Assembly: GCF_024436435.1 (NCBI RefSeq)
Contig: NZ_JAFMZP010000004.1
Location: 434,001-498,000, forward strand
Source of the DNA: Desertivirga xinjiangensis
GTDB taxonomy: Bacteria > Bacteroidota > Bacteroidia > Sphingobacteriales > Sphingobacteriaceae
Reading direction: 5' to 3'
Length of the DNA: 64,000 nt
The notes under the pieces are model-generated. The model was not told the DNA's origin. It was given only the letters and a program-made list of their open reading frames with translations, and did not search any database. Shown here one piece after another: positions 16,336 through 57,791 of the stretch. Each line of letters opens with the position of its first letter. The first letter of the stretch is position 1. The translations under genes were made by a program, and so were the position numbers.

Positions 16336-16340
16336 AGGTT

Positions 16341-18047: not shown

Positions 18048-18068
18048 CTAATAAACAAATTAACCATT

Positions 18069-19595: not shown

Positions 19596-19610
19596 CAACA
19601 TCATTCAGAA

Positions 19611-19648
19611 CGCAAATGTCATACTCATTATAATGTATGGCATTTGTG
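19611..19648 (+). repeat. Long hairpin between GH53 and GH2
   Basis: CAAATGTCATAC (19613-19624) pairs with GTATGGCATTTG (19635-19646) around a 10-base loop, with one G-U pair. Two further pairs extend the stem to about 14. No T-run follows, so this is more likely an RNA stability or processing element than a classical terminator. The hairpin covers the TTG that would give a longer GH2 reading. Confidence 0.65.
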
Positions 19649-19670
19649 TCTGACTAAACCACACTACAAA

Positions 19671-22136: not shown

Positions 22137-22202
22137 TGTTACAAGAGTGTTACTTTTGGTTACCTGAAGATAGTAACCATGATTTTTTTTGATCTAATAT
22201 TG
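22137..22202 (+). promoter_or_regulatory. Putative HTCS operator and promoter, site A (before GH35)
   Basis: Direct repeats TGTTAC at 22137, TGTTAC at 22148 and GGTTAC at 22158 are spaced 11 and 10 bases apart. After 31 bases TAATATTG (22195-22202) follows as a -7-like box. Sites B and C share the outer repeats and exactly this spacing. No -33 TTTG is at the expected place, as is usual for activator-dependent promoters. Confidence 0.72.
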
Positions 22203-22251: not shown

Positions 22252-24621
22252 GTGAATAACTTTAATCGCTTTATTGCTATCGTACTTTTATTGTTTAGTT
22301 TTCCAGCTGTGCTACGGGCACAGCCGGTTTTTTCTACCTTCAGCGTGGGGAAAAAGCAGTTTGAGTTGAATGGAAAACCGTATGTGATCCGGGCCGCTGA
22401 ATTACATTACCCGCGTATTCCCCGTGCTTACTGGGAAAAGAGAATCAAGCTTTGTAAAGCAATGGGTATGAACACCATTTGTATTTACCTGTTTTGGAAT
22501 TTGCATGAGCAGCAAGAGGGAAAGTTTGACTTCAGTGGCCAAAACGATGTGGCTGAGTTTGTTCGTCTTATTCAAAAGAACGGGATGTATTGTATTGTCA
22601 GACCGGGACCGTATGTATGTGCCGAATGGGATATGGGAGGCTTGCCCTGGTGGTTACTTAAAAAGAAAGACCTCGAAGTGCGAACGCTTTCTGACAGTCA
22701 TTTCATGGCACGTGCCGGACGTTTTTTAAGAAAAGCCGGTGCCGTGTTGGCGCCTCTTCAAATCCAGAACGGGGGAAATATCATAATGGTCCAGGTAGAG
22801 AACGAGTATGGGGTATGGGGTGATGATGGACATTATATGGCTGCTATCCGGGATACGATTCGTAAGGCCGGGTTTGATAAAGTTCAGCTATTCCGGTGCG
22901 ATTGGTCATCGAACTTTGACCGCTACGAGGTGGCAGGAGTAGCGAGTACGCTAAATTTTGGAGCAGGGGCAAACGTAGAAAATCAGTTCGAAAAGTTTCG
23001 AAAAATAAATCCTGACGCCCCCCTGATGTGCAGCGAATATTGGACGGGCTGGTTCGACCAATGGGGCCGCCCCCATGAAACACGGGGCGTTAATTCTTTT
23101 ATATGGAGCCTGAAAGATATGATGGAAAGAAAAATATCTTTCAGTCTTTATATGGCCCATGGAGGAACGTCGTTTGGTCAGTGGTCTGGGGCAAATGCCC
23201 CCTGGTATGCACCCACAGTGTCTTCGTATGACTATGATGCACCAATTAATGAGGCCGGGAAGCCAACTGATAAGTTCTTTGCGATAAGGGATTTGTTGAA
23301 AGATTATTTAAATGAAGGAGAGGTATTACCGGAAGTGCCGGATGAGCAGATTTCCCTAATCACCGTACCCCAGATCAAATTTACTAAATACGCCGCTTTG
23401 TTCGACAATCTTCCACGTCCGAACAAAAGCAAAATCGCACAGCCTATGGAGTTTTTTGACCAGGGCTGGGGACGAATTCTCTATCGCACTACAATTCCAG
23501 GCTCGGCCTCTGAAAGAAGATTGCTCATAGAAGGAGTGCACGATTATGCTCTTATCTACCTCGATGGAAAATATCTCGGTAAACTGGACCGCAGATTAAA
23601 TGAGAACACGGTAAAGGTTCCGAAAGCTGCCAAAGCCGCCAGGTTGGATATTCTTGTTGAAGCAACAGGCAGGGTCAATTACGGGCGGGCAATAATAGAT
23701 CGTAAGGGAATAGCCGGAAAGGTAGTATTGAAGGATGGGAATAAGGAAATGGAGGTTTCTAACTGGAATATTTACAACTTTCCGGTGGAAAGCGAGTTCC
23801 AGGAAGGGCTTAAATTTACCACTGCCATAGGGAAAGGTCCGGGCTGGTATCAGGGATCCTTCACCATTGATAAAATTGGCGACACCTACCTGGATTTGAG
23901 CAGCTGGGGAAAAGGTATGGTTTGGGTAAACGGTTACAACCTGGGGAGATACTGGAAAATAGGTCCTACACAAACAATGTTTCTTCCCGGAGTCTGGTTA
24001 AAAAAAGGTCTTAATCAGATTATAGTTTTAGATATTGAGCATGGCAATTCGGAGCGGTTGCAAGGAGTGAGGCAGGCTATCTACGAGGTAGTTCAAGATG
24101 AATCCATGTTGCACCGAAAACCGGGGGAAGAGCTGGATCTCAAGTTAGCCAAACCTGTGTTAACAGGAAGTTTGCCTAACGAACCGGGGTGGAAAAAGGT
24201 AACACTTCCTGCAACGGAGAAAGGAAGGTATTTCTGTCTTGAAGTCACTCAATCGCAATCAGAAAATGATCCGGTTACTTCGCTGGCAGAAATGGAAGTT
24301 TTAGCAGCTGATGGGAAACCACTATCTTCATTAAACTGGAGTGTAGTGTATGCTGACAGTGAAGAAGTTACGTCTATCGGAAGCTCTGCCGATAAAATTT
24401 TTGACCTCCAGGAGTCTGTTATCTGGCAAACGCAAATTACAGGCAAGAAGCCCCCGCTTCCACATGCTGTGGTAATAGACATGGGGCGCATAGAAACTGT
24501 AAGTGGAATACGTCTTTTACCCCGGGGAGATACAAATGCAACAGGTATTATAAAGGATTTTCGTTTCTACCTGCAGGATAAACCTTTTACCATTAAAAAA
24601 ACTTCAGGGCAGCTAAAATAG
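22252..24621 (+). CDS. GH35 beta-galactosidase with C-terminal discoidin-like domain
   Basis: Retaining beta-galactosidase of family GH35, secreted (signal about residues 1-23). The N-terminal barrel carries LHYPRIPRAYW, VENEYG with acid/base Glu185, and CSEYWTGW with nucleophile Glu262. Jelly-roll domains follow, and the last 140 residues (SLAEMEVLAADG, VIDMGRIETVSGIRL) resemble a F5/8 type C carbohydrate-binding module. Translation starts at a GTG (22252-22254); an ATG at 22221 is out of frame and opens only 12 codons. It has its own promoter (site A) and a strong terminator, so it can be expressed apart from the upstream operon. Confidence 0.93.
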   Translation: MNNFNRFIAIVLLLFSFPAVLRAQPVFSTFSVGKKQFELNGKPYVIRAAELHYPRIPRAYWEKRIKLCKAMGMNTICIYLFWNLHEQQEGKFDFSGQNDVAEFVRLIQKNGMYCIVRPGPYVCAEWDMGGLPWWLLKKKDLEVRTLSDSHFMARAGRFLRKAGAVLAPLQIQNGGNIIMVQVENEYGVWGDDGHYMAAIRDTIRKAGFDKVQLFRCDWSSNFDRYEVAGVASTLNFGAGANVENQFEKFRKINPDAPLMCSEYWTGWFDQWGRPHETRGVNSFIWSLKDMMERKISFSLYMAHGGTSFGQWSGANAPWYAPTVSSYDYDAPINEAGKPTDKFFAIRDLLKDYLNEGEVLPEVPDEQISLITVPQIKFTKYAALFDNLPRPNKSKIAQPMEFFDQGWGRILYRTTIPGSASERRLLIEGVHDYALIYLDGKYLGKLDRRLNENTVKVPKAAKAARLDILVEATGRVNYGRAIIDRKGIAGKVVLKDGNKEMEVSNWNIYNFPVESEFQEGLKFTTAIGKGPGWYQGSFTIDKIGDTYLDLSSWGKGMVWVNGYNLGRYWKIGPTQTMFLPGVWLKKGLNQIIVLDIEHGNSERLQGVRQAIYEVVQDESMLHRKPGEELDLKLAKPVLTGSLPNEPGWKKVTLPATEKGRYFCLEVTQSQSENDPVTSLAEMEVLAADGKPLSSLNWSVVYADSEEVTSIGSSADKIFDLQESVIWQTQITGKKPPLPHAVVIDMGRIETVSGIRLLPRGDTNATGIIKDFRFYLQDKPFTIKKTSGQLK

Positions 24622-24868: not shown

Positions 24869-24895
24869 GTAACAAAAACAATCGTCTATGTAACA
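24869..24895 (-). promoter_or_regulatory. Inverted TGTTAC-N15-TGTTAC box, site D
   Basis: On the minus strand two TGTTAC repeats are separated by 15 bases with TTTT before the second, as in sites A to C. The TATATTG downstream (24833-24839) is closer than in those sites by three bases. On that strand no gene follows, because GH35 converges. It may be an orphan box or act on the plus-strand gene at 25134. Confidence 0.4.
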
Positions 24896-34697: not shown

Positions 34698-37600
34698 TTA
34701 AGAGGAACTATTTGTGCTGGTTTCGACCTCTGCCTGCTTGCCGTATTCTTTCGGCGACACGCTGTACATCTCCTTGAAATATTTGTTGAAATGAGAATTG
34801 CTTGATATACCTACTTCGAACATTACCTCCGAAATCCTCATTGAACCACTTGACAGCAGCTGTGCGGCTCTTTTTATTCTAACCTCTCTAATAAACTCTG
34901 ATGCTGTCTTTCCTACGATAGCATGTAGCTTCCTGTGCAGATTCATCCGGCTCATTCCAATCCGGTCGCAAAGTTTTTCTACGCTGAAGTTCGGGTCAGA
35001 TAAGTTTTGCTCTACAATGTTCACGATCTTCTTCAAAAGCTCTTTATCTAATGATGGAACTTCCACTTCAGTTGGTTTGATGATTTCATCTTTATACATA
35101 CTCACCATTAACTGGTTCTGTGATTTCAGTATATTATTGATTTTCAGGGCAAGCATTGAATAGTCGTATGGCTTGGGAATGAAATCATCTGCTCCGGCTT
35201 CGAGCGCGGCTTTTATAGTCTCGGATGAATTTTTCACACTGTGCACAATTACCGGGATGTGACTTGTTTTTGCATGCGATTTCACCTTTCGGCATACATC
35301 TATTCCATCGGAGAAGGGCATCATCAGATCGGTAAGTATCAGATCTGGTTGATATTTTGAAGCAAAATCAAAGCCTGCGGCTCCGTCAGCTGCTTCGAGA
35401 AGGTGGAAGTGGAGGTGAAGGCATTCTTTGAGATACAACCTTTGATCTTCGTTATCTTCAATGATCAGTACTGTCTTTCTGGTAAGGTTAATTTCGGGAC
35501 TTTCAATAGCTTTCACATGCAGTCCTGCAGCCTCTCCCATTTGGTCATCCTGCTCTTTGGAGTGTTCCTGAATGGTTTCTGTACTGAAGCGTTGTTTCGA
35601 AACCGGAAAACTGACCAGGAATTCAGCTCCGCTCTCTGCTGACCTATTCAATCGCAGTGTTCCATGATGCATTTCGATCAGCCTCTTTGCCAGGGAGAGT
35701 CCTATGCCAGTACCCGAGTTAAAGTGATTATTGCTTTGGTAATAAAGCTCAAATATTTTTTCCTCTTCTTTCTGCTCTACTCCAATTCCTGTATCCTTAA
35801 CGCTGATAGTCGCCTCCTGATCTGTCATTTCTCCATTAACTGTAAGAGTCACAGAAATAGTCCCGCCATTGGGAGTATATTTAAAAGCATTGGAAATCAG
35901 GTTAAAAACTACCTTTTCAATTTTATCTTTGTCAAACCAGGCGTGCCATTCGCGCGGGCTTTGAAAATCGAACCGAATATTTTTTTGTGCCGCCATCCAG
36001 TCGAACGACTTTTTGACCTCTAACAGCGTGTATACCAGGTCATATTCGCGTATTACAAGTTTTTCAGAATCCGAGGTGATTTTTCTAAGATCGAGGATTT
36101 GGTTAATGAGATTATAGAGTTTGAGGGTATTCCGGTGAATGATTGCAACTCTTGTGTTGGTATATTGATCGAAGGATTCAGCTTTTCCCAGCAAATCTTT
36201 AAGTGGGCTGATAATAAGGTTGAGTGGGGTGCGGATCTCGTGGGTGATGTTGGTGAAAAAGTTAAGCTTGATTTCATTTAGTTCCGTCACTTTTTCCTTT
36301 TCCAATTTTTCCCTGTAAAGCTCGTTCTTCAAGCGATTCCGGCTTCTGAAATACCTGATCACCTGATATAAGGCCCATATAGCGAACAGGCAGTAAATAA
36401 GCTTGGCCCACCATGTAGCCCATGGAGCAGGACTGATCTCGATATCAAGTGTCCGGATGTGTTTTGAATAGACACCATCATTGTTGGAAGAGGAAATTAA
36501 AAATCTGTATTTTCCCGGGTCAAGATTGCCATAGGCTGCAATTCGTTCTGAAAAATCAGTTTCTATCCAGTTTTTATCATATCCCTCAAGCTTATATCTG
36601 AATTTATTGTTTTCAGGAGCTGCAAAGTGTAGCGAGGCAAATTCGATAACAAAATCGTTCTGTTTATATGAAAGATTAATCTTGTTGGTATAGTTAATAT
36701 CATTTTGCAGAATGACCGAACCATTATATTCTTCACCCGGCTTTATAGTGCGGTTGAATAGCCGGAAACCGGTAAAACCGGTTTGAGCGTGAAAAGCATT
36801 ACTTGTTATTTTTTCTGGCTTAAAGTAGTTCAGTCCGTTGATGCTGCCAAAATAAAAGACGCCCTTACCGTTATTAAATGCAGCTTCAGTTAAGGTGGAG
36901 CTCAGCAGCCCGTCTTCATAGGAAAACAGCTTCGCATGATAACTGCCATTGTTGAAACGGAAAAGGCCCTGGCTGCTGCTGAGCCAGAGGTTAGAGAACT
37001 TATCTTCCATTATAGCCATTATTTTTCTGTCTGCCAGAGGAGAAACATCAATTGTTTGAATGCTTTTTACCTGAGAACCTGCATCTAAGGAGAGTTTGTT
37101 TAACCCTGCGTCTGTTCCTACCCATAGAGAATTAAAACGATCGCGGTGGAGGCACCAGACATGGTTGCTGCTTAAGCTATTTACGTTGTTTGGCTTGGGC
37201 TTATAAACAGTGATGTTATAGTTACCTGAATTGTCGTAGCTGATGCGGTTCAAGCCTCCTCCGATAGTTCCTGCCCAAATTACAGGTGCGTAGGGATCCT
37301 GGTAAACTATGTATACTGAGTTTGATGACAAGCCGTGCCCGACTGTTATTTCTTTGAATTGATTTAGTTTGCGGTTATAAATGAGGATTCCGCCCCAGGT
37401 GCCGATCCAAAGATTATTAAACCTGTCCTCGCAGATTGAGCGGGCTATAAACGCATCTTTTACAGTGCTTATTTTGTAGGTACTGCCGGCAGGTAGTACT
37501 TTGTATAAGCCGTTCTCGGTACCAATCCATAATGTTTTGTCTCTGGTTTCGACCAGGGAGCAGATCGATTTCGAATTTAGAGCATTTTTATAAGGAAATA

Positions 37601-38798
37601 GTTGTTTTGTGCATTTATTATATCTGTATAGACCTTCATTGAAAGTGCCGACCCAAAGATCATCGCCGGTTTCAGCAATTGCAGAAATATATTTCCCTTC
37701 ATATCCAGGCAAGGCTGTCTTGTCAGACATCATTGGGTAGAAAGAAAAGAAGTTTTTAGGTGAAAGATCAGTGTAATTTATGCCTTTTTGATAAGTGCCC
37801 ACCCATAGTGTATTAGAGCGGTCAACAAATAAGGTGTTGATGGAATTGTCTACCAGGTTACAGAACTCTTTTTGTGTATGGTATTGCGTTAATCCTTTTA
37901 TACTTCCACTCGAATTTAATGCTATTCGATATAAGCCCGAGGTTTTGCTGCTGATCCATAGGTTGCCCTCACGATCTGCTTTTATTGCAGAAATCTGTAA
38001 GTCTACTCCTGAAAGATCCTGACGTGCGGTTATGATTCTGGGGTCTATAATGCTTAAAGCGTAAACTCCTTTTGCATGAGCCACCCAGACACTGTTGTGC
38101 TCATCAGTGAAGAGAGCTGTGATACGTAAATCACCCGGCTGGCCTATTTTTATGAATCGTTCGGGCCGGATCATTTTACCTGATCCCTTGCGGTACATAT
38201 AGAGCCCCCTGTCTGTTCCTATCCATGTATTCCCGGCCCTGTCTGTAGCCAGGCTTAAAATATTTGCTCCTTTGAAGGAAGCCGGGAAAGTAATTTCTGG
38301 TTTGCTTTTCCCCATAGAAGACTCCGTAATTATTGCCAACCCTTTGTCTGAGCCCGCCCATACATGGCCATCTGCATCAATGCTCAGCGTTTGAATGGTG
38401 TTACTTGGTAGTTGAGCACCTCCAATATCAACTGTTAGAATCTTACCATCGGCCGGGTTAAGGATGTTCACGCCCCCTCCGTCTGTTCCTATCAAAATTT
38501 GTCCTTTAGCACTTTCATAAAGGCAGAGAACCCTGTTGTCAGAGAGGCTGAATTTATTGTGCGATGTATGCCTGTAGATCGTGTTGGAAGACCCATCGAA
38601 GCGGTTTAACCCGTCATACGTCCCAATCCATATAAATCCCCTCGAATCCTGTATTATAGAAGTGACCGAGTTTTGCGACAGGCCATTGTTCACAGAAAGG
38701 TAGTTGAATGAATAGTTCTGAGCCAGATCGACATCACAAGCGCTTGCCCTGCCCAGTAGGGTAAGGACTAACAGTGGTATAAAAATGTATAAGTTCAT
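34698..38798 (-). CDS. Hybrid two-component system regulator (HTCS), complete, about 1366 aa
   Basis: Single-protein sensor and regulator that spans the inner membrane. A signal segment precedes fourteen or so two-component propeller repeats (DSRGFIWIGTYDGLNRFDG type) and a Y_Y_Y domain. One transmembrane helix follows (WWAKLIYCLFAIWALY), then the HisKA box (NITHEIRTPL), HATPase (NLISNAFKYT, DTGIGV), a receiver (LIIEDNEDQ; LILTDLMMPF with the phospho-Asp) and an AraC-type HTH with RMNLHRKLHAIVG. I start at 38796-38798 (MNLYIFIP), which gives a proper signal. The ATG at 38834 adds 12 residues. Its gene diverges from site C and it is cotranscribed with a GH110-like gene, so it is the best candidate to bind sites A to C. 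Confidence 0.93.
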   Translation of the reverse strand: MNLYIFIPLLVLTLLGRASACDVDLAQNYSFNYLSVNNGLSQNSVTSIIQDSRGFIWIGTYDGLNRFDGSSNTIYRHTSHNKFSLSDNRVLCLYESAKGQILIGTDGGGVNILNPADGKILTVDIGGAQLPSNTIQTLSIDADGHVWAGSDKGLAIITESSMGKSKPEITFPASFKGANILSLATDRAGNTWIGTDRGLYMYRKGSGKMIRPERFIKIGQPGDLRITALFTDEHNSVWVAHAKGVYALSIIDPRIITARQDLSGVDLQISAIKADREGNLWISSKTSGLYRIALNSSGSIKGLTQYHTQKEFCNLVDNSINTLFVDRSNTLWVGTYQKGINYTDLSPKNFFSFYPMMSDKTALPGYEGKYISAIAETGDDLWVGTFNEGLYRYNKCTKQLFPYKNALNSKSICSLVETRDKTLWIGTENGLYKVLPAGSTYKISTVKDAFIARSICEDRFNNLWIGTWGGILIYNRKLNQFKEITVGHGLSSNSVYIVYQDPYAPVIWAGTIGGGLNRISYDNSGNYNITVYKPKPNNVNSLSSNHVWCLHRDRFNSLWVGTDAGLNKLSLDAGSQVKSIQTIDVSPLADRKIMAIMEDKFSNLWLSSSQGLFRFNNGSYHAKLFSYEDGLLSSTLTEAAFNNGKGVFYFGSINGLNYFKPEKITSNAFHAQTGFTGFRLFNRTIKPGEEYNGSVILQNDINYTNKINLSYKQNDFVIEFASLHFAAPENNKFRYKLEGYDKNWIETDFSERIAAYGNLDPGKYRFLISSSNNDGVYSKHIRTLDIEISPAPWATWWAKLIYCLFAIWALYQVIRYFRSRNRLKNELYREKLEKEKVTELNEIKLNFFTNITHEIRTPLNLIISPLKDLLGKAESFDQYTNTRVAIIHRNTLKLYNLINQILDLRKITSDSEKLVIREYDLVYTLLEVKKSFDWMAAQKNIRFDFQSPREWHAWFDKDKIEKVVFNLISNAFKYTPNGGTISVTLTVNGEMTDQEATISVKDTGIGVEQKEEEKIFELYYQSNNHFNSGTGIGLSLAKRLIEMHHGTLRLNRSAESGAEFLVSFPVSKQRFSTETIQEHSKEQDDQMGEAAGLHVKAIESPEINLTRKTVLIIEDNEDQRLYLKECLHLHFHLLEAADGAAGFDFASKYQPDLILTDLMMPFSDGIDVCRKVKSHAKTSHIPVIVHSVKNSSETIKAALEAGADDFIPKPYDYSMLALKINNILKSQNQLMVSMYKDEIIKPTEVEVPSLDKELLKKIVNIVEQNLSDPNFSVEKLCDRIGMSRMNLHRKLHAIVGKTASEFIREVRIKRAAQLLSSGSMRISEVMFEVGISSNSHFNKYFKEMYSVSPKEYGKQAEVETSTNSSS

Positions 38799-38867
38799 AT
38801 GGGTTAGTACTGGGGAATACACAATTGTAGTCATTTGAAACCTATTTGTAAAGGCGAAAAAAGGTGA

Positions 38868-38933
38868 TGTTACATCCGGGAAAGTTTTTGTTACAGGAGT
38901 AAACTTCGAAATGAAATTATCAATTTAACATTG
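38868..38933 (+). promoter_or_regulatory. Putative HTCS operator and promoter, site C (before GH2 operon)
   Basis: TGTTAC at 38868 and TGTTAC at 38889 are 21 bases apart, as are the outer repeats of sites A and B; the middle repeat has decayed. TAACATTG (38926-38933) starts 32 bases after the last repeat ends, identical to A and B. Leader length to the GH2 start is 177 bases. Confidence 0.7.
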
Positions 38934-39110: not shown

Positions 39111-41774
39111 ATGAAACAAACACACAATTCGTTTAAGTGGGCAAAGTTCCTTGCCCTGCTGATTTTTATGTCGAACAATTGCCTGGTTTTGGGGCAGGCA
39201 ATGAAACGTACTCCCTTATTTTCCACTGCTGGTTTCTTCCCAATAAAGGACAGCCCGAGAAAGGTGTCTAATTTCAACCCTGGCTGGAGGTTTTATAAGG
39301 GCAGTCTTACAGATGCCTTTAAAGAAGGTTTTGACGATTCTTCCTGGCAAATTGTAGGCCTTCCTCACGGGCTTGAGATCCTGGGAGAAAATGCCAGCGG
39401 AATGCGTAATTACCAGGGACCGGCCTGGTATCGTAAAAAGTTCAAGGCACCAGCGAATCGTCAGGGGAAGAGCTTTGTGTATTTTGAAGGGGTGATGGGG
39501 AAGTCGACTGTATGGCTTAACGGAAAAAAGGTTGCCGAGCACTTTGGTGGTTACCTTCCTTTCACCATTGCCATAGACAATAGCAGTTTGCACGGTGACA
39601 GGGAAAACGTTATTGCCGTTCTCGCCGACAATTCAGATGACCCTACCTATCCTCCAGGAAAACCGCAAGACAATCTTGATTTTACGTACCTGGGAGGGGT
39701 GTACAGGGATGTATATTTTATAGAAACGGCTCCGGTTCATATAACATTCCCTGAATTGAGTTCTACTGTTGCAGGCGGTGGAGTATTTGTAGCTGTTAAG
39801 GATGTAAATGGCAAGAACGCCAGTCTCGAGATCCGCACAGAGATAAAGAACAGTAGTAACACTGCAAAGAACTTGACGGTGAGAACGGTTTTAGAAACTG
39901 CTGAAGGTAAAGAAGTAATGAAAAAACAGAGTGCCCTAAAGATAGGTGGCGGCGCTTCTTCTCAGGTAACTCAGGAAATGGAGCCCAAAAACGTTCATTT
40001 ATGGCATCCTGACGATCCGTACTTGCATTTTGTAAAGACAGAAGTGCTTGAGAACGGCAAAGTTGTGGATAGCTATCGTACCCGCTTTGGAATCCGTTTA
40101 TTCGAAATGAGAGGAGATCAGGGCTTTTTTGTAAATAAGAAATACATTGGGCACAAACTTTCCGGAGTAAACAGGCATCAGGATTATGCTTACGTAGGAA
40201 ATGCCCTGCCGAATACGGGTCAATGGCGCGATGCAAAATTACTGAGAGAAGGAGGCTCCACCATCGTAAGGGCAGCACATTATCCATTAGACCCTGCGTT
40301 CATGGACGGATGTGATGAACTTGGTCTGCTGGTTACTTCGGCAAATCCAGGCTGGCAGTTTTATAATGATAAGGATCCTATTTTCCCTAAACGACTGGCG
40401 GAAGACACTCATGCCCTGGTTAGGAGAGATCGTAACCGCCCTGCTGTTGTCTTGTGGGAAACTGCGATAAATGAAACGCCATGGCAGCCTGCTTCTGTGA
40501 TGAAAAACCTCCATGATATTGTGCATGCTGAATTTCCGTTCCCTGGAGCTTTTACGGCAGCCGATGTAGATGAAGCCAAGAAAGCAGGCTTCGACTTTTA
40601 CTATCACGGTGGAATGGAAGAGGAAAAATGCTCCTTTACGAGAGAGTATGGAGATGGCGGAGAAGTAGACAACTTTTATTCTCAGAATGCCATTACCCGG
40701 GTGAAACGTGAATGGGGCGAGTTTGCGATGTTAAACCAGGCAATGGTGAGGGCGAAGGGTCTACAGGGAATTTATCCGACTCCTCCGAAGCGTATAGGAG
40801 CGGCTCTCTGGTGCGGTATAGATCATCAGCGCGGGTATCATCCAAGCCCGTTCTGGGGAGGGCTGCTGGATGTATACCGTATGCCCCGCTATTCCTATTA
40901 TTTATTCAAAAGCCAGTACGATGCAGATTTCAAACTGCCAGGAATAGAAACCGGACCAATGGTGTACATTGCTCACGAGCTTAGTCAGGCATCTGATAAA
41001 GATGTGATTATCTTCAGTAACTGCGATGAAATACGCCTTACCTGGTTGGGTAAAGTGATCGGTACCGCAAAGCCGGACCCGTCGTTAAAAAGTGTGCCCC
41101 ATGCGCCCTTCATCTTTAAAAACGTGTTCAATTTCCATGAGATCTCTTCCAAATGGAGGAACAGAACGCAGGACATTGAAATGATTGCAGAAGGTTTGAT
41201 CGGAGGTAAGGTGGTGACCAGGCAGGTAAAAAGGTATGCAGAGCGGACTACTGCTGTACGCCTGGAAATAGATAGCGCGGGGATTGGTCTTTTTGCAGAT
41301 GGGGGCGACTTTGTGCCTGTAAGAGCATCGATTGTAGACAATAAGGGCGTTGTGAAAGTGCTTGAGCCAGAGTTTATTCACTTTGAAGTAGAAGGCGAAG
41401 GTGAGATAATAGGAGGAGAGTTTAACCAGGCTAACCCTATGAAAACACAGTTCGGTACATCTACGGTGTTTATCAGGGCAACTACCAAGCCAGGTCAGAT
41501 TAAGGTAAAAGCCTATGCTGAGGGATTAAAATCGGATGTCATAACTTTTAATTCTCGCCCATCACAGTTACCACTTTACTATAGTGAAAAAGCTGTAGCA
41601 ATAGCACAGAACAATTCCTCTGGAAATAAGGCTGGCGGATCTGGCAAAACCTCTGGTCTTTCCGCTGAAAATTCTACCGTATCAGAACTGCAGGAGAAAA
41701 TTAAACGCTTGCAACTCGAGATTACGAGCAGAGATCAGGACATTATGGAGCTTCGAAGCAAGGTACAGAAGTAA
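39111..41774 (+). CDS. GH2-family glycoside hydrolase with C-terminal coiled coil (887 aa)
   Basis: Exported GH2 enzyme, signal about residues 1-28. The sugar-binding domain (WRFYKGSLTDAFKEGF, NGKKVAEHFGG), Ig-like domain and barrel are in GH2 order. The acid/base is Glu455 in ETAINETPW and the probable nucleophile Glu512 in FTREYGDG; both motifs deviate from the classic beta-galactosidase form, so substrate may differ. A Gly/Ser-rich linker (around 830-850) leads to a heptad-like tail (VSELQEKIKRLQLEITSRD, about 852-887), unusual for GH2 and suggesting oligomerisation. It heads the run to 51377, with site C upstream. Confidence 0.88.
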   Translation: MKQTHNSFKWAKFLALLIFMSNNCLVLGQAMKRTPLFSTAGFFPIKDSPRKVSNFNPGWRFYKGSLTDAFKEGFDDSSWQIVGLPHGLEILGENASGMRNYQGPAWYRKKFKAPANRQGKSFVYFEGVMGKSTVWLNGKKVAEHFGGYLPFTIAIDNSSLHGDRENVIAVLADNSDDPTYPPGKPQDNLDFTYLGGVYRDVYFIETAPVHITFPELSSTVAGGGVFVAVKDVNGKNASLEIRTEIKNSSNTAKNLTVRTVLETAEGKEVMKKQSALKIGGGASSQVTQEMEPKNVHLWHPDDPYLHFVKTEVLENGKVVDSYRTRFGIRLFEMRGDQGFFVNKKYIGHKLSGVNRHQDYAYVGNALPNTGQWRDAKLLREGGSTIVRAAHYPLDPAFMDGCDELGLLVTSANPGWQFYNDKDPIFPKRLAEDTHALVRRDRNRPAVVLWETAINETPWQPASVMKNLHDIVHAEFPFPGAFTAADVDEAKKAGFDFYYHGGMEEEKCSFTREYGDGGEVDNFYSQNAITRVKREWGEFAMLNQAMVRAKGLQGIYPTPPKRIGAALWCGIDHQRGYHPSPFWGGLLDVYRMPRYSYYLFKSQYDADFKLPGIETGPMVYIAHELSQASDKDVIIFSNCDEIRLTWLGKVIGTAKPDPSLKSVPHAPFIFKNVFNFHEISSKWRNRTQDIEMIAEGLIGGKVVTRQVKRYAERTTAVRLEIDSAGIGLFADGGDFVPVRASIVDNKGVVKVLEPEFIHFEVEGEGEIIGGEFNQANPMKTQFGTSTVFIRATTKPGQIKVKAYAEGLKSDVITFNSRPSQLPLYYSEKAVAIAQNNSSGNKAGGSGKTSGLSAENSTVSELQEKIKRLQLEITSRDQDIMELRSKVQK

Positions 41775-41803
41775 GTTAATGTCAAACCTAGTAGAAAAAA
41801 CAC

Positions 41804-44263
41804 ATGAATAGACTTAGGGTACTCGGTTACGTTCTACTTTTCTGCTCTTGCAGCTCAAGCAGAACTAGCAGAATAAAGCAGATGCCGCAATATAGCGGCA
41901 TCTACCCTCACCTTGCCTATTACAATAATGAAGGTGAATGCGGAACAGGAGCGGTTGTTCCCTGGGCTGGAAGTTTGTGGGTAGTGTCGTATGCTCCTCA
42001 CAGTTATTTGGGATCCTCGGATAAACTCTACCAGATAACGCCAGATCTGAAGCAGATCATTCGTCAGGAAAGTATAGGGGGAACCCCGGCTAACAGAATG
42101 ATCCATCCGGAAAGTCAGCAACTTTTTATAGGACCATATGCCATCGATAAAAATGCAAATATTAGGTCGCTGTCATATAATGCTGTCCCTGGCAGATATA
42201 CCGGAATTACGAGGCACCTCAGTGATCCATTGTCCAAAGCCTACCTGGGCACTATGGAAGAGGGAATCTATGAACTGGATGTAAAGACGCTGGGTACAAA
42301 GACCCTGTTTCCAGACGAAAACAAATTCAGAGATCAGCAGAAGGCGTACGAAAGCATATTGCCAGGTACCCATGGCAAAGGTCTGTACTCGGGCCAGGGA
42401 GTTTTGATCTATTCGAACAATGGTGAATATGGAGATGATGCCAGGGAAAAATTTGATGTACCCTCGGGTGTACTTGCCGAATGGAATGGCAAAGACTGGA
42501 AAATCGTGAGGCGAAATCAGTTTGCAGAAATAACAGGTCCAGGTGGTATTGAAGGAAACAAAAATCCGGATACTGATCCTGTCTGGGCTACCGGGTGGGA
42601 TCACAAATCTGTTTTACTGGGTGTGAGAGATAATAATCAATGGGCGTTTTTCCGATTACCTAAAGCAAGCCACAGCTATGATGGGGCACACGGATGGAAT
42701 ACCGAATGGCCTCGGATCAGAAATGTTGGAACCGCAAACAAACCTCATTACGTCATGACTATGCACGGACTTTTCTGGCATTTTCCGGGAGCTTTCTCTT
42801 CGCGGAATTCTGCGGGAATACGGCCAGGATCGGCGTATCTGAAGGTGTTCGGCGATTTTGCACGCTGGAACCAACAACTTGTTTTTGGAGCTGACGATGC
42901 AGCAAAGAAAGAGTTTTTAAACAGCCGCAAAGCAAAAGGAGAGATGCCGGGTCCCGGCCAGTCCAATTCAAATTTGTGGTTTACTTCGTTGAAGAGCTTG
43001 GACGAATTAGGGCCAAATACAGTAAATGGAGCGGTATGGTTGTCAGAACAGGTAGATGCCGGTCAGGCATCGGATGCTTATTTATTTGCCGGCTGGAAAC
43101 ACAGGGCAGCCTGGCTTTTAAACGAGGGCCCAAAAACGGTAACATTCACCTTCCAGGTAGATCGTAACGGTAAGGGCGACTGGCAGGAGCTGAAAAAAGA
43201 GCAGGTTGATCCAGGCAAGTCAATTAATATCAGCTTTGGTTCTTCAGAAAAAGGCGAATGGATCCGGGCAATTTCCAATGTATCAACAAAGGCAACGCTC
43301 CATTTTTCCTATACAGACGACAGTCGCTTTGCTGATGAGTCCGGTTCAATATTCAAAGGGACTAACCGTATAAAGGAAGAAAATTACCATGGAGGTTTGT
43401 TATACTCTCTTGGGGATAACAGAAGAGCTTTAGGAATACTGGCAGGTAATATATCAGATGGAAAGTTTTTTGAAACTGGTTACTACGAGCTAAGTGCGGA
43501 TATGAAGCTTGAAAAAAAGCAAGATGCGCAAACTACATCTTTTATTCGTGAACGGCTTGCGATAAACCGATCTCCCGGAATAAGCATTGAGGAATCTTCT
43601 GTTTTAGTTATCGATAATAAGAATAGAAGATGGAGGCTCCCCCTGGGTGACAGCTCTTTTAATGCGCTTTACTCCAATAGCCTGGCAAGAGTTTGCCGGG
43701 AAGTTGTTACAGAGCGGGATCTGTTAAATATCCATGGTACATTTTATGAACTACCTGCAGAAAACGCCGACGGATTTGCGAAGATACGTCCGGTAAGCTC
43801 TCATCAGTTTACAATCCATGATTACGTTTCTTACCGGGGTTTACTGGTAATGAGTGGAATTTCTGCAAGTACAAAAGGAAATGAAAATATTATAGAATCT
43901 GCAGACGGGGAAGCAAAAGTATGGGCAGGAACAATAGATGACCTTTGGAAAATGGGCAAGCCGGTTGGAAGGGGAGGGCCGTGGATGGAAACCTCAGTTG
44001 AGCAGAATATTCCTTCTGACCCTTATCTTATCGGTTTTTACGATAGGAAAAGCCTTGAATTATCTCACGATTTGACCGAACCGGTTACTATTTCAATAGA
44101 GGTTGAACCTGTAGGACATGGTCCCTGGATGTTGTATAAAAAAATAGAAGTGAAGCCAGGCGAAACAAATACATACACTTTTCCAGATTCTTTTCAATCC
44201 AGATGGATACGCTTTTCATCTGATAAAAATTGTAAAGCCACTGCCTGGCTTAAGTATCAATAA
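41804..44263 (+). CDS. Large lipoprotein of unknown family, copy 2 (819 aa)
   Basis: Paralogue of the protein at 942-3401, of identical length, with long blocks of identical residues (for example PQYSGIYPHLAYYNNEGECG and MIHPES). The signal ends in a lipobox Cys (LLFCSCSSS). The N-terminal signal segment and residues around 515-530 diverge most. The two copies are on opposite strands, 38 kb apart, which fits an ancient duplication followed by selection to keep both. This one is framed by GH2 (29 bases before) and a GH110-like gene (31 bases after). It could be an uncharacterised glycan-binding protein or enzyme for the same polymer. Confidence 0.85.
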   Translation: MNRLRVLGYVLLFCSCSSSRTSRIKQMPQYSGIYPHLAYYNNEGECGTGAVVPWAGSLWVVSYAPHSYLGSSDKLYQITPDLKQIIRQESIGGTPANRMIHPESQQLFIGPYAIDKNANIRSLSYNAVPGRYTGITRHLSDPLSKAYLGTMEEGIYELDVKTLGTKTLFPDENKFRDQQKAYESILPGTHGKGLYSGQGVLIYSNNGEYGDDAREKFDVPSGVLAEWNGKDWKIVRRNQFAEITGPGGIEGNKNPDTDPVWATGWDHKSVLLGVRDNNQWAFFRLPKASHSYDGAHGWNTEWPRIRNVGTANKPHYVMTMHGLFWHFPGAFSSRNSAGIRPGSAYLKVFGDFARWNQQLVFGADDAAKKEFLNSRKAKGEMPGPGQSNSNLWFTSLKSLDELGPNTVNGAVWLSEQVDAGQASDAYLFAGWKHRAAWLLNEGPKTVTFTFQVDRNGKGDWQELKKEQVDPGKSINISFGSSEKGEWIRAISNVSTKATLHFSYTDDSRFADESGSIFKGTNRIKEENYHGGLLYSLGDNRRALGILAGNISDGKFFETGYYELSADMKLEKKQDAQTTSFIRERLAINRSPGISIEESSVLVIDNKNRRWRLPLGDSSFNALYSNSLARVCREVVTERDLLNIHGTFYELPAENADGFAKIRPVSSHQFTIHDYVSYRGLLVMSGISASTKGNENIIESADGEAKVWAGTIDDLWKMGKPVGRGGPWMETSVEQNIPSDPYLIGFYDRKSLELSHDLTEPVTISIEVEPVGHGPWMLYKKIEVKPGETNTYTFPDSFQSRWIRFSSDKNCKATAWLKYQ

Positions 44264-44294
44264 AAAATAATTATTCAACACTAGAAAACGATTT

Positions 44295-46019
44295 ATGACC
44301 AAGAGGTATAAAATGTTTTTGAGCAGTATTCTCTGCTCAATGTGGCTGTGTGCCGGTTACGCTAATGATAAAGTGGTGAACATTGCCGACTTTATGAAAT
44401 ACGTCAGGGAAGGAGATGACGTTACACCTGTCGTCACAGAGGCTTTGAAATATTGCCGTAAAGTACAGGCAAGCAAGCTGCTATTTCCCAAAGCGACCTA
44501 TAATTTCAAAAAGGACTTTGCTGTCGAAAAATATCATTTCATAAGCAATAACGATGAGGGATTAAAGCGCTTTGTGTTCGACCTTAGCGGGATAAAGAAC
44601 CTGGAGATTGACGGGCAGGGATCTCTATTCCTCTTAAATGGCTTTCTATCTCCTTTTCTGTTAGACAAGTCATCAAATATCACCTTCAGGAATTTTTCCA
44701 TTGATTATTCGCGTACTTTTCATAGTGAAGGGAAGATCCTTAAAGTCGATAATAATGGCATAGACATTCAGTTCAGCAGCGGGTTTCCTTATAAAATAGA
44801 TAACACCACACTGCTTTTTACGGATAAAGAAGGGACTGTATATCCCTGGAGCGATCTTCTCGAATTTGATCCCCAAAGGCGTGAAACTGCTTTTATGGCC
44901 AAAGATCTTTGGGTGGGATCGAAAGTCCCTGTAAAAGAAATATCTCCAGGCGTTGTTCGACTGAAATCACCTGATATAAAAGGTACAGTAGGCAATGTCA
45001 TGGTATTTGCCGCCGGACATCGCCTCGTACCGGCCTTTAATATTTCTTCCAGTAATAATATCCGCTTTTTTGATGTGAACATTTATCACTGTGGCGGAAT
45101 GGGCGTGATTGCCCAGAACAGCAGTAATATTTACCTGGATAAAGTTAAGGTAAGTCCAGCTCCGGGCTCGGGCCGGATTATAAGTATTACAGCAGATGCC
45201 ACTCACTTTTCCAACTGTACCGGAAAGGTAGTACTCGAGAACTGCTTATTTGAAAACCAAAAAGACGATGCAAGCAATATTCACGGAATCTATAGCAGAA
45301 TAACTCGTGTCATATCCCCGAATGAAATAGAAGTAAAGCTGGTACATCGACAGCAATTCGGGTTCGATTATCTCGAGGAAGGAATGGAGCTGGAGTTTGC
45401 AGACGGTCCCAGTATAAAGACCTACAGTAAAAATACTATAAAGTCCTTAGATCGAATAAATAAGGAATATACCCGGGTTACTCTGAGACAGCCGCTGGAT
45501 CCGGCAACGAAGTCGGGTGATGTAATCGCAAGTATTAACGGCTACCCTGAAGTGCTTATCAGGAACTGTGTCATCAGGGGCAATCGTGCCAGGGGGATAT
45601 TGCTGAACTCTCGCGGCACAACAATAGTGGAAAATAACGTTTTTCACGTTCCGGGGGCAGCCATATTATTTGAAGGAGACGCAAGCTTCTGGTACGAGCA
45701 GTCAGGCGTCAATAACGTAATTATCCGCAACAATACCTTCGACAATTGTAACTACGGCGTTTGGGGAACAGCCTGCATTGAAGTGGGATCAGGGATCGTA
45801 AAGGAATACAGGGCCAATAACAGCTATCATAAAAATATCGTCATCGAAAACAATGTGTTTAAAGTTTTCGATCCGCGGATCCTCAAAGCTTACAGCGTTG
45901 ATGGATTGGTATTCAGGAGTAATAAAATTGAGAGAAGTAATGATTATAAGAGTCTGTATCCCAATGCGGAGCCTTTCGTTGTAGACGATTGTTCGGGTGT
46001 ACAGATCGAGAATTTGTAA
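44295..46019 (+). CDS. GH110-like alpha-galactosidase, right-handed beta-helix (574 aa)
   Basis: Second GH110-like protein, with a signal peptide ending near GYAND. The beta-helix repeats (LEIDGQGSLFLL, ITFRNFSIDY, VLIRNCVIRGN, VIIRNNTF) and the segment ITADATHF, CLFENQKDDASNIHG place paired Asp at 324-325 just before N.HG, the layout of GH110 active sites. It differs considerably in sequence from the protein at 32850-34676, suggesting different linkage branches. The following sulfatase starts 14 bases after its stop, so sulfated alpha-galactosyl residues are a possible target. Exact linkage is inferred. Confidence 0.75.
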   Translation: MTKRYKMFLSSILCSMWLCAGYANDKVVNIADFMKYVREGDDVTPVVTEALKYCRKVQASKLLFPKATYNFKKDFAVEKYHFISNNDEGLKRFVFDLSGIKNLEIDGQGSLFLLNGFLSPFLLDKSSNITFRNFSIDYSRTFHSEGKILKVDNNGIDIQFSSGFPYKIDNTTLLFTDKEGTVYPWSDLLEFDPQRRETAFMAKDLWVGSKVPVKEISPGVVRLKSPDIKGTVGNVMVFAAGHRLVPAFNISSSNNIRFFDVNIYHCGGMGVIAQNSSNIYLDKVKVSPAPGSGRIISITADATHFSNCTGKVVLENCLFENQKDDASNIHGIYSRITRVISPNEIEVKLVHRQQFGFDYLEEGMELEFADGPSIKTYSKNTIKSLDRINKEYTRVTLRQPLDPATKSGDVIASINGYPEVLIRNCVIRGNRARGILLNSRGTTIVENNVFHVPGAAILFEGDASFWYEQSGVNNVIIRNNTFDNCNYGVWGTACIEVGSGIVKEYRANNSYHKNIVIENNVFKVFDPRILKAYSVDGLVFRSNKIERSNDYKSLYPNAEPFVVDDCSGVQIENL

Positions 46020-46033
46020 TCCCCATTTGTATT

Positions 46034-47518
46034 ATGATGAATAACTATAAGTTTTTATTAATGTTCCTAGGCTTTGTTCCGGTAGTTTTCCCGGTAAATG
46101 CCCAGGACAGACCCAATATTATTTTGATTTATGCCGATGATCTTGGCTATGGTGATGTGAGTTGCTATGGTGCTAAAGCAATACAAACACCTAATATTGA
46201 TAAACTTGCAAAAACGGGTCGCCGCTTTACCAACGCACACAGTACTGCTTCAACTTGTACTCCATCCCGTTTTTCCCTGTTAACTGGTATTTATCCCTGG
46301 AGAAAAAGTGGTACCGGTATTGCCACGGGTGATGCTGCTTTATTGATACCTGTTTCTGGCCCTACACTACCTGGAGTTTTAAAGAATGCGGGATATAATA
46401 CAGCTGTTGTTGGAAAATGGCATTTGGGTTTGGGTGATGGCACGGCAATACAATGGAATGCTGAAGTAAAGCCCGGACCGCGAGAGACAGGATTTAACTA
46501 TAGTTTTATTCTGCCGGCAACTGGCGACAGGGTTCCCTGTGTGTACATGGAGAATGGCCGGGTGGTTAACCTGGATCCCACCGACCCTATTGCAGTAAGT
46601 TACCACTCCAAAGTAGGGGATGAGCCCACCGGTTATGAGCATCCTGAATTGCTTAAACTGAAGTATACAAAGGTTGATCATGACAAGACTATAATTAACG
46701 GCGTAAGCCGGATAGGCTACATGGCCGGTGGGAAAACGGCCAGATGGAAGGATGAGGACATGGCTAAAACGTTAGTTACAAAGGCCGATAGCTTTATCAG
46801 AGGAAATAGAAGTAAGCCCTTCTTTCTGTTCTTTTCAGCTCATGATATCCACGTTCCGCGACTACCTCATCGACAGTTCGCCGGTAGAAGCAGCATGGGC
46901 CCCCGCGGGGATGCTATTCTGCAGCTGGATTGGACCGTTGGTGAAATTGTAAAAACACTAAAACGCGAAAAGCAGCTGGAAAACACCATGATCATTTTCA
47001 GCAGTGATAACGGCCCTGTACTTGACGATGGCTATGATGACGGGGCCGATATTCTTGCCGGCAACCACTCTCCTTCAGGCCCCTTTAGAGGAGGGAAATT
47101 CGGCGAGTACCAGGGCGGAACAAGAATACCTTTCATAGTTTCCTGGCCCGGAAAAGTAAAACCGGGAGAGTCAGATGTGTTAATCAGTCAGTCGGATTTG
47201 CTTGCTTCATTTGCAGGTGCGGTCTCTGGAAGAAACAAGCAGTCAGAGCTTGCAGACAGTTTTAATATGTGGGATGCACTTATGGGAAACGGTCATGGTT
47301 CGAGAACCTCTCTGGTTACCCAGTCGTACGGTAACACGCTTTCTCTTATCTATCAAAACTGGAAGTACATAGAACGGCCGGCCGGAACGCCTCCGGAGTT
47401 ATATAACCTGTCTGAAGATATTGCTGAAAAGCGTAATGTGTTTGCTCAGAATCCTGCAGTTCTGCAGCAACTGAAAGCTCTTCTTCAAGAAATCAAGAAT
47501 GCTAATCATAAACATTGA
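46034..47518 (+). CDS. Cys-type S1 family sulfatase (494 aa)
   Basis: Secreted sulfatase, signal about residues 1-23 ending at VNAQ. The core begins RPNIILIYADDLGYGD, with the formylglycine motif CTPSR and a second fingerprint GKWHLG. FSSDNGP and GEYQGGTRIPF follow. It has the standard length of about 500 residues and no extra domains, unlike the sulfatase at 3911. I use the ATG at 46034 (MMNNY); a longer reading from a TTG at 45989 would overlap the GH110-like gene and has no signal peptide. No maturation enzyme is encoded in the window. The sulfate position is unknown. Confidence 0.93.
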   Translation: MMNNYKFLLMFLGFVPVVFPVNAQDRPNIILIYADDLGYGDVSCYGAKAIQTPNIDKLAKTGRRFTNAHSTASTCTPSRFSLLTGIYPWRKSGTGIATGDAALLIPVSGPTLPGVLKNAGYNTAVVGKWHLGLGDGTAIQWNAEVKPGPRETGFNYSFILPATGDRVPCVYMENGRVVNLDPTDPIAVSYHSKVGDEPTGYEHPELLKLKYTKVDHDKTIINGVSRIGYMAGGKTARWKDEDMAKTLVTKADSFIRGNRSKPFFLFFSAHDIHVPRLPHRQFAGRSSMGPRGDAILQLDWTVGEIVKTLKREKQLENTMIIFSSDNGPVLDDGYDDGADILAGNHSPSGPFRGGKFGEYQGGTRIPFIVSWPGKVKPGESDVLISQSDLLASFAGAVSGRNKQSELADSFNMWDALMGNGHGSRTSLVTQSYGNTLSLIYQNWKYIERPAGTPPELYNLSEDIAEKRNVFAQNPAVLQQLKALLQEIKNANHKH

Positions 47519-47559
47519 AAATATAGAAATTAACATTTACAAAACCAATTATTAACCTT

Positions 47560-50511: not shown

Positions 50512-51377
50512 TGACTATGAAAGCTGCTGCCTTAATTTTATGTCTGCTTTCCGGTTTTCAGACATTAGGTCAGGGATTGCCCGTTTATAACCATTTTTAT
50601 CTGAACAGGTTTTTGTATAACCCGGCGTTCGCTGCTAGTCCGGGAGGAATCACCCTCTCAGCACTAAGCCGGGTGCAATGGGTTAATTCGTCCAGTTCAG
50701 TCTCTAACTCTGTTCTGACCGCGCAGGTGCCGGCAGGTGAGAAAGTAGGTTTGGCGCTGATAGCTTCTAATGATCAGCAGGGGGTTCTAAGCAGCGTCTC
50801 TGCATGCATGGCGTTCAGCTACAAAGTAAGGCTGACCGGGAACCAGAATTTACGGTTCGGATTATCTGCCGGCGGTCACAAGAGAAGTATTGACAACGAG
50901 GAATTGGACGTAACACACTATGATGATTTATCCATTGCAACGATCGAAAATAGCAGTATAGAGATGATTGGCAGCTTCGGAGCCGCCTATGAAAATGCCG
51001 GTTTCACCCTGGGTTTTTCTTTGCCAGGTCTTGATCTGTCATCGCGCGAAGGCAACGGGGCGAAGATGTTTAAAAACTATCTCCTCTCGGCCGGATTTAA
51101 AACAAAGTCTCAAATCAGCCTCGAACCCCAGCTTGTATTTGTGTCGGAGGCTGGGGTTACAAACAGGCTTGAAGGTATGGTGACCTGTTTTTTCAACGAT
51201 GCGGTTTGGGCGGGTGGAATTTACAGAATTGACTATGGGCATGCACTTTACGGAGGGCTAAATGTGGGGAAGTCCTTGAAGATAGGCTATGCTTTCGAAA
51301 CGGGCGAAGCAAGTGTTGCCCGAAGTTTTAATTCTACACATGAATTTCTGATCGCCTATAAATTCAAAAAGCGGTAG
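50508..51377 (+). CDS. PorP/SprF-family type IX secretion membrane protein (289 aa)
   Basis: Outer membrane beta-barrel of the PorP/SprF family: signal to about GLGQG, then the family start YNHFYLNRFLYNPAFA, and alternating beta-strands to the end (FLIAYKFKKR). By family knowledge these proteins work with type IX substrates carrying the C-terminal domain encoded just upstream. The ATG overlaps the stop of that cargo gene (ATGA at 50508-50511), so the two are translationally coupled and probably work as a pair. The core T9SS genes are not in this window. Confidence 0.9.
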   Translation: MMTMKAAALILCLLSGFQTLGQGLPVYNHFYLNRFLYNPAFAASPGGITLSALSRVQWVNSSSSVSNSVLTAQVPAGEKVGLALIASNDQQGVLSSVSACMAFSYKVRLTGNQNLRFGLSAGGHKRSIDNEELDVTHYDDLSIATIENSSIEMIGSFGAAYENAGFTLGFSLPGLDLSSREGNGAKMFKNYLLSAGFKTKSQISLEPQLVFVSEAGVTNRLEGMVTCFFNDAVWAGGIYRIDYGHALYGGLNVGKSLKIGYAFETGEASVARSFNSTHEFLIAYKFKKR

Positions 51378-51388
51378 AAGGCAATGAA

Positions 51389-51454
51389 TGTTACAAGATT
51401 ATTACTTTTTGTTACGTCAGCTGATACAATCGCCCTCTTTTGATGCTAAAATTG
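51389..51454 (+). promoter_or_regulatory. Putative HTCS operator and promoter, site B (before SusC 2)
   Basis: TGTTAC at 51389, TATTAC at 51400 and TGTTAC at 51410 repeat with 11 and 10 base steps. TAAAATTG lies at 51447-51454, exactly 31 bases after the last repeat. TTTTGATnCTAA around the -7 box is also shared with site A. Confidence 0.74.
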
Positions 51455-54600: not shown

Positions 54601-54765
54601 TTGTTGGAAAAGGTCAGAGTTAAAACTTTTAGAGTTTATGCAGCGGGCTTTAATCTATACACCTTTAGTAGTTTCAAATTCTGGGATCCGGAGTTAGGTA
54701 ATGGAAATGGCGCCGCTTATCCCTTACAGCGTTCCTTTATTCTGGGAGCGAATATCAACTTTTAA
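51601..54765 (+). CDS. SusC/RagA-family TonB-linked outer membrane transporter 2
   Basis: Second glycan import channel. It has a longer N-terminal leader than usual (signal hydrophobic core about residues 21-38), then a carboxypeptidase-regulatory-like domain (VRGKVTDDKGEPLPGVAV). The DLQEVVVVAYG TonB-box-type segment, the plug (LVLVDGIERP, SVLKDASATAVYG) and a large barrel ending in ILGANINF follow. The length of 1054 residues is normal. It clearly differs from the first SusC, so the two pairs probably take different oligosaccharides. The gene has its own promoter (site B), a leader of about 146 bases, and is followed by SusD after 11 bases. Confidence 0.96.
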   Translation: MDVKFSGRRLQEHRLCKRKLIVNLTLMLIMMGYCPVFGESLSKEVYVKTLKAAIEIVRGKVTDDKGEPLPGVAVKLKGASVSTVTDANGDFAIKLDNLSGTLVFMFIGFSSQEVDINGRTTVNVKLKESTKDLQEVVVVAYGTQKKGSVVGAISTVKPADLKVAAPRSLTNAIAGKVAGVISVQRSGEPGKDDAQFWIRGISTFGAGKEPLVLVDGIERPMNNVEPEDIESFSVLKDASATAVYGIRGANGVVLVTTRRGKQAKPALNFKYEKGMLNATSKPKFVDAPTYLQLLNEANLATNPNYVTPYTPGVIEKYRSGEDPHLYPNVDWMGMMMKDFSDNQRATMNVSGGSEKAKYYISGSYYDESGIWSTDALKSYNSQSKLQRINFRSNTDLALRKDLELSLGLGGYLMLTNYPGDGNSGAVWYNMMLATPAKYAPTAPDPEDPRRLVYLNSGGSGNINPYQSLVDKGFSNQWTNTLQTDLTLNYDGAVITKGLKSSIKFSYDAYSHNKILRSRSGDTWAITPPGRDPVTGNLILQKTYTGSQDLGYTKSAGGDRRIYFQGSVNYDRQFGDHTIGGMVLYNQQDYQNADAANSIDALPFRFMGVVGRVTYSYKNRYFIESSGGYNGSENFAKGHRFGLFPSISAGWTASEEPFFKNLVNPGILSYLKFRGSYGLKGNDRLGGRRFAYLTTVGGGFGQYMLGADVNNGWGTVGEDQWGADLTWEKERELNIGMESNFLNGFSLQADFFTRHREGIFLQRNSMPMITGMKNRPWGNIGEFKNRGFETTLEYSRKVGEANVSLRGNYTFARNNLVDNDEPDFVYTYQNTKGKRLNQPFGLIAEGLFQSAEEIGSSPKQTFGTVRVGDIKYRDVNGDGVVNTYDEVAIGNPDIPEIVYGFGTSISFKGFDLSAFFQGAANMDFMLGGDGFFPFTRGETQGNVPYWATDRWTPENPSQNVLFPRLSSGSNPNNYRNSTWWQREADYLRLRTAEFGYTLPKKLLEKVRVKTFRVYAAGFNLYTFSSFKFWDPELGNGNGAAYPLQRSFILGANINF

Positions 54766-54776
54766 TAATTGAAATT

Positions 54777-56591: not shown

Positions 56592-56620
56592 TTTAAATCT
56601 AATTTAAAGACTTAAGTTTT

Positions 56621-57682: not shown

Positions 57683-57701
57683 GAAGTACCCATGATTTCA
57701 T

Positions 57702-57740
57702 GGAAAGAACTACCTGCAAAGGAGTTCTTTCCTTTTTGTT
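57702..57740 (+). terminator. Rho-independent terminator of the SusC 2 operon
   Basis: GGAAAGAACT (57702-57711) and AGTTCTTTCC (57723-57732) form a perfect 10-base stem with an 11-base loop, followed by TTTTTG. It lies 20 bases after the DUF1735-like gene. Confidence 0.92.
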
Positions 57741-57791
57741 TATATTTCGGTGTTTTGGTATAATTGCCATCCCATTAAAAATCAGATCCCT

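Follow-up and report, generated by a model that had tools for sequence, protein, structure and literature searches.

Three sites in the window, i.e. the whole stretch of 64,000 nucleotides of Desertivirga xinjiangensis DNA that was analysed, have one exact geometry in common: two TGTTAC-like words form a direct repeat with a spacing of 21 bp, and a -7-like promoter box follows 31 bp downstream of the last one. The full arrangement is unique to these three sites in the genome, is conserved at orthologous promoters of relatives and tracks with a close ortholog of the regulator HTCS1 among the genomes searched. Judged from the sequences, it is very probable that sites A, B and C are the operator-promoters of one regulon, which HTCS1 would bind as a tandem dimer and activate.

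Sites A, B and C and the surrounding genes

The features of the window are given below in the order of their coordinates.

6179-7213: LacI regulator of the galactan-type cluster (Pfam)
7349-22118: SusC1/D1, GH2, FAD oxidoreductase, sodium:solute symporter, GH53 and GH2 genes of the galactan-type cluster (Pfam)
22137..22163, plus strand: site A, a 21-bp direct repeat with TGTTAC at 22137, an extra TGTTAC at 22148 and GGTTAC at 22158
22195..22202, plus strand: -7-like box of promoter A, TAATATTG, 31 bp past the last repeat of site A
22252..24621, plus strand: GH35 beta-galactosidase-like gene, GTG start 49 nt past the box, predicted target of site A
24869..24895, minus strand: site D, two perfect TGTTAC words spaced by 21 with a T-run, directed toward the 3' end of the GH35 gene
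34698..38834, minus strand: HTCS1, located between A and B, predicted regulator of A, B and C
38822..38829, minus strand: TACAATTG, likely -7 box of HTCS1, 38 bp from the first repeat of site B, with the same sequence and distance in 4/4 genomes
38868..38894, plus strand: site B, TGTTAC at 38868 and TGTTAC at 38889 without a middle repeat, between HTCS1 and the GH2 gene
38926..38933, plus strand: -7-like box of promoter B, TAACATTG, 31 bp past the last repeat, identical in 4/4 genomes
39111..51377, plus strand: genes for GH2, an unknown protein, a GH110-like protein, sulfatase, CHU_C (type IX signal) and PorP downstream of promoter B, a putative operon
51389..51415, plus strand: site C, TGTTAC at 51389, an extra TATTAC at 51400 and TGTTAC at 51410
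51447..51454, plus strand: -7-like box of promoter C, TAAAATTG, 31 bp past the last repeat of site C
51601..58595, plus strand: SusC2, SusD2, DUF5013 and 3-keto-disaccharide hydrolase-like genes downstream of promoter C, a putative operon
60191 to beyond 64000, minus strand: HTCS2, a second hybrid regulator with AraC-type HTH at the right edge of the window

HTCS1 has Pfam matches above the cut-offs to Reg_prop, Y_Y_Y, HisKA, HATPase_c, Response_reg, HTH_18 and HTH_AraC. By these predicted domains it fits a hybrid two-component system, in which sensor, HisKA, HATPase_c, receiver and AraC-type HTH are combined in one polypeptide. Rfam matches at gathering scores were absent from the window.

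The direct reading of the sequence bore out two central statements of the original prediction, namely the 21 bases between the outer repeats and the 31 bases from the last repeat to the box at A, B and C. The TGTTAC repeats, which it had described for all three sites, are real as sites, but the last repeat of A reads GGTTAC. It was mistaken about the middle repeat (11 + 10 bases), which it had placed in A and B: this repeat is present in A and C, and B has GGAAAG instead. The middle repeat was considered as motif core and ruled out, because it is missing in B and in six orthologous sites of relatives; the core is the two-part 21-bp direct repeat.

Aligned in register, the nine sites from four genomes (see below) have TGTTACA, a T-run before KGTTAC, 31 bp and the box TAAnATTG in common, and the TGTTAC/KGTTAC pair is spaced by 21 bp in 9/9 sites. 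Within the own genome, sites A and C agree at 24/27 repeat positions and at only 17/40 positions downstream. A further word, TTTGAT(G)CTA, stands just before or over the box in A, C and D of this genome (22185-22202, 51440-51454 and 24833-24848 on the minus strand), and it is found neither in B nor in the sites of the relatives.

Occurrence in the genome and in related genomes

As a check, the original prediction had proposed a motif scan of the whole genome. The pattern KRTTACN15KRTTACN31TANNATTG gave three matches on the forward strand of the whole 5.5-Mb genome, none on the reverse strand and none with the reversed-pattern control. All three fall in the window, each ahead of a gene or operon, such that the spaced motif is not scattered at random positions and occurs only before genes of this cluster. 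Without the box, the repeat pair gave 22 matches in the genome, A, B, C and D included, versus 21 in the controls. Since the repeat pair alone is found at chance level, its combination with the box is the special part. The single word TGTTAC occurs 39 times in the window, where 25 are expected. It must be mentioned that the scan pattern was picked after sites A to C had been seen, which is why the relatives serve as the independent test.

Two motif searches were performed in relatives, with 399 and 400 genomes of one family in largely overlapping sets. The free-gap pattern, which permits gaps of 17-46, gave 27 matches in the 399 family genomes. Seven of them had gap 31 and came from the own genome (G000), G220 and G313; the remaining 20/27 had other gaps and were all located in other genomes, and the reversed-pattern controls gave about 22. 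The order-level search of 400 genomes stayed within this family and shared most of its genomes with the first search, with about 26 new ones including G416. It resulted in 29 matches, 9 of them at gap 31 (G000, G220, G313 and G416) and the other 20 again elsewhere with other gaps. A refined motif with up to 3 mismatches, applied to these four genomes, found the nine known sites and one 3-mismatch match in G220.

G220, G313 and G416 have two exact-geometry sites each, one before the orthologous GH2 gene (B) and one before susC (C). The B site of G416 was seen first, in the stretch L004 (Pedobacter sp. UBA5917), which is contained letter for letter in contig 185 of G416 and was counted once; its C site was predicted before the scan and then found. 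These six additional sites at orthologous promoters of three other genomes, together with the three forward, zero reverse and zero control matches of the own genome, confirm the earlier claim that the geometry is unlikely to have arisen by chance. The order HTCS1, GH2, GH110-like, CHU_C, PorP, SusC2 and SusD2 is kept in all three relatives, and the sulfatase is present at the locus in G313 and G416 and was not found there in G220. The distance from the box to the first long ORF is variable (49-177 nt), and the gap is constant at 31.

In the comparison of the four genomes, all motif columns are identical in 4/4 for B as well as for C (18/18 each), compared to 37/102 (B) and 21/102 (C) of the other columns. 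This conservation exists partly by construction, because the relatives' sites were found using the pattern, and common descent accounts for part of the sharing of the B and C sites, because the four genomes are related. A counterpart of site A was not found in G220, G313 or G416, which have only two gap-31 sites per genome, and their best GH35 relatives (45-48%) are located elsewhere.

Two further observations concern these loci. The HTCS1 ortholog of G313 (G313:C1, about 326004; L045, L084) has a frame change within the HTH domain, which is either real or an assembly error, and both operator sites of this genome are intact despite the interrupted frame. Furthermore, the LacI-type galactan cluster (here taken as LacI, SusC/D, GH2, symporter and GH53 at 6179-19595) lies to the left of the HTCS1 cluster in the present genome and immediately to its right in G313; the stretches from G220 and G416 did not show it.

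Promoter boxes and proposed mode of action

The -7 consensus of the primary sigma factor of Bacteroidetes is TAnnTTTG (PMC7366714, PMC9723704), and three sigma-A motifs varying around it have been described (PMC9723704). The boxes of the present sites depart from this consensus: in agreement with the original prediction the fifth position is an A, and the box has the form TAAnATTG in 9/9 sites. As a general box of the genome, TAnnATTG is not enriched in 67 upstream regions (12 sense versus 10 antisense), and the same 67 regions contain TAnnTTTG 22 times in sense and 16 times in antisense direction.

A missing TTTG at the -33 position had been taken to suit activation. It is indeed absent at this distance from 9/9 sites of the four genomes; however, this is weak evidence for activation and not diagnostic in this phylum, because Flavobacterium johnsoniae yielded no identifiable -33 motif (PMC7366714) and 3/9 of the present sites have TTG 18 bp before the box. 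The own sites A and C have TTTG 3-4 bp before the box. The argument that a phasing of 10-11 bp suits an AraC-type HTH likewise holds in part, as the 21-bp period is conserved but the phasing of the middle repeat is not.

HTCS1 seems to have a promoter of its own on the other side of site B. In the own genome, the likely -7 box TACAATTG falls on the opening codons of the long ORF, hence HTCS1 probably starts at codon 13 (38798), and position 38834, where the long ORF begins, probably lies too far upstream. An ATG is present 63-69 nt from the repeats, behind TACAATTG, in 4/4 genomes.

In the mechanism that we propose, a glycan fragment would be bound by the periplasmic propeller of HTCS1, whereupon the receiver domain would become phosphorylated. 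Judging by the GH35, GH2, GH53, GH110-like and sulfatase genes, candidate inducers are beta-1,4-galactan and alpha-1,3-linked or sulfated galactans. The AraC-type domain would then bind the TGTTAC direct repeat as a tandem dimer, with both TGTTAC halves two helical turns apart on the same face of the DNA. The proximal half-site of AraC-type activators is usually located near the region from -49 to -44. In Flavobacterium psychrophilum, the sigma-A box is positioned at -12 to -5 (PMC9723704). If the present box is placed likewise, the second half-site would come to lie at about -49 to -44 and adjoin RNA polymerase. The HTCS1 dimer would then recruit polymerase to a weak promoter, which has no good -33 element and TAAnATTG in place of TAnnTTTG, and the GH35 gene, the GH2 gene run and the susCD genes would be switched on together. 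Binding, phosphorylation and activation, as well as the operons, start sites and ligand of the HTCS1 regulon, are what we infer from this arrangement.

Alternatively, HTCS1 could bind the repeats as a repressor, or activate some of the promoters and repress others, for example its own gene. Such a role would be in line with three observations: site B is flanked by divergently oriented genes and by conserved boxes on both sides in 4/4 genomes, the conserved TACAATTG box of HTCS1 itself lies 38 bp from the repeats, and the Bacteroides thetaiotaomicron HTCS BT2391 has been reported as a repressor (PMC11253607). However, the receiver of HTCS1 has SHIP, a motif that is tied to phosphorylation-dependent binding and from which BT2391 deviates (PMC11253607). 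Moreover, the repeats are located upstream of the box and not over it, at equal distance in A, B and C. We regard repression therefore as improbable and favour HTCS1 as an activator of the three promoters.

HTCS1 as the probable regulator

With HTCS1 as query and E<=1e-200 as threshold, 16 of the 399 family genomes gave a match. Apart from the own genome (100%), these were G220 and G313, both at 58%, and 13 others at 33-35%. Among 145 genomes of the relatives' genus, only three passed E<=1e-250, i.e. G220, G313 and G416 (58-60%). These searches scored few first-look candidates per genome (one or two in those displayed for the 399-genome search), so that an HTCS1 ortholog could have been missed. 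None of the 13 family genomes with a best HTCS1 match of 33-35% has a gap-31 match in the free-gap scan. In the two motif searches of 399 and 400 genomes, gap-31 sites occurred only in the four genomes in which a close HTCS1 ortholog was found. That the exact geometry tracks with the HTCS1 ortholog across the searched genomes supports the predicted shared activator-type promoter bound by an HTCS with AraC-type HTH as the best reading. The DNA-binding domain of HTCS1 shares 75-76% identity with its counterparts in G220 and G416, and likewise with that of G313 over the matched 63 residues; among the 26 best of 65 such domains, the next best reaches 47% and HTCS2 39%.

The sites could in principle be bound by HTCS2, which has the same architecture and is encoded in the same neighbourhood, near susC2. 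Its HTH is, however, only 39% identical to that of HTCS1, and relatives of HTCS2 at 63-67% occur in G001 and G002, both of which are without the motif. In G220, G313 and G416, the best HTCS2 matches reach 56, 38 and 46% and are encoded either on a different contig or at a distance of about 350 kb. HTCS2 was hence rejected as regulator on the basis of presence and absence, since it does not track the motif, and we consider its involvement very unlikely. That the whole arrangement is a coincidence, produced by a reader who was free to choose word, spacing and box, finds a point in its favour in the repeat pair alone being as frequent as its control (22 versus 21), but is hardly conceivable given the six sites with the same spacing at orthologous promoters of three other genomes and the confinement of gap 31 to the four genomes with an HTCS1 ortholog in both searches (399 and 400 genomes).

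Site D and the generality of the geometry

Site D has an off-register TATATTG at 24839-24833, with a gap of 29. No ORF of at least 500 codons starts within 500 nt ahead of it, where only small ORFs are found, and a scan around D for sigma-70-type promoters and terminators gave 2 and 1 matches, versus 3.9 and 0.9 expected. Site D may represent a relic, a decoy or an antisense promoter.

Near other HTCS genes, the combination of period 21 and gap 31 gave 0 matches in 40 stretches of four genomes, taken from the 67 HTCS matches listed. This general scan used exact 6-mer repeats with periods of 12-30 and gaps of 16-46 before TAnnWTTG. An excess of period 21 was also not detected in 28 SusC upstream regions, a weak test as the SusC starts were set by a crude rule. 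These two scans therefore do not show the geometry to be general. The SusC regions gave one good 22-bp example, in G313 (L138, minus strand): the direct repeat TTTAGGATTTTA stands ahead of TAGATTTG and a SusC gene and resembles the operator-promoter of another HTCS.

Only tentatively, we can speculate that part of the HTCS-controlled promoters of this phylum form a distinct activator-dependent class, characterized by the missing -33 element, the weakened TAAnATTG box and the rigid 21 + 31 bp spacing, in which an AraC-type dimer would replace the -33 contact. In the same speculative picture, site D, antisense-facing at the GH35 end, would be driven by HTCS1 or titrate it.

Relation to known operators and significance

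A well-known example of such a tandem arrangement is E. coli AraC at araBAD, where the I1-I2 half-sites are spaced by 21 bp and the proximal one adjoins the polymerase site. Sites A to C resemble it in the 21-bp tandem half-sites and in the predicted position of the proximal half beside the polymerase site. AraC is a soluble sugar-binding protein, and its sigma factor, effector and binding word differ from those of the HTCS1 case.

HTCSs are a major class of regulators for polysaccharide genes in Bacteroides (PMC11253607). For B. thetaiotaomicron, motifs were predicted for 16/36 HTCSs, all of them direct repeats with a mean distance of 21 bp, and HTCS dimers were proposed to occupy a single side of the double helix (Ravcheev et al., 2013; PMC3878776). 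Like A to C, those operators are direct repeats of about 21 bp, are located before genes of polysaccharide utilization loci (PULs) with a co-localised HTCS and are kept in orthologs (PMC3878776). The present sites show the same features, with the 21-bp direct repeat in 9/9 sites, a location near the presumed cognate HTCS and the retention of B and C in 3/3 relatives with HTCS1. This likeness refers to spacing, location and conservation; the core word of the present sites is TGTTAC, and the genome belongs to another family of the phylum. Furthermore, the fixed 31-bp gap to a -7-like box is added here, as promoter-box spacing is not mentioned in the consulted portions of PMC3878776.

Direct evidence for HTCS binding comes from fragments of BT4124 and BT4663, which bind their target promoters bt4114 and bt4662 in gel shifts (PMC11253607). 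Common to these proteins and HTCS1 are a REC domain plus AraC-type HTH with binding upstream of susCD, predicted in the case of HTCS1, and the conserved S/CHIP motif (PMC11253607), which reads SHIP in HTCS1. In contrast to the measured binding of BT4124 and BT4663 (PMC11253607), that of HTCS1 is predicted from its sites. A statement on a fixed distance between an HTCS site and a promoter box was not found in the consulted parts of the literature on HTCS operators. In our best reading, A to C belong with the known HTCS operators, and the fixed promoter spacing together with the variant box is the part worth testing.

In the consulted parts of the literature, HTCS operators are mostly predictions, and their contact with the unusual RNA polymerase of this phylum is not described. 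The nine sites from four genomes link a single regulator with a single operator word and a fixed geometry of the promoter. For the organism itself, the GH35 gene, situated at the edge of the neighbouring galactan-type cluster with its LacI-type regulator, is predicted to be a recruit to the HTCS1 regulon. Moreover, A to C provide short test promoters for the question whether activation by HTCSs needs a fixed contact.
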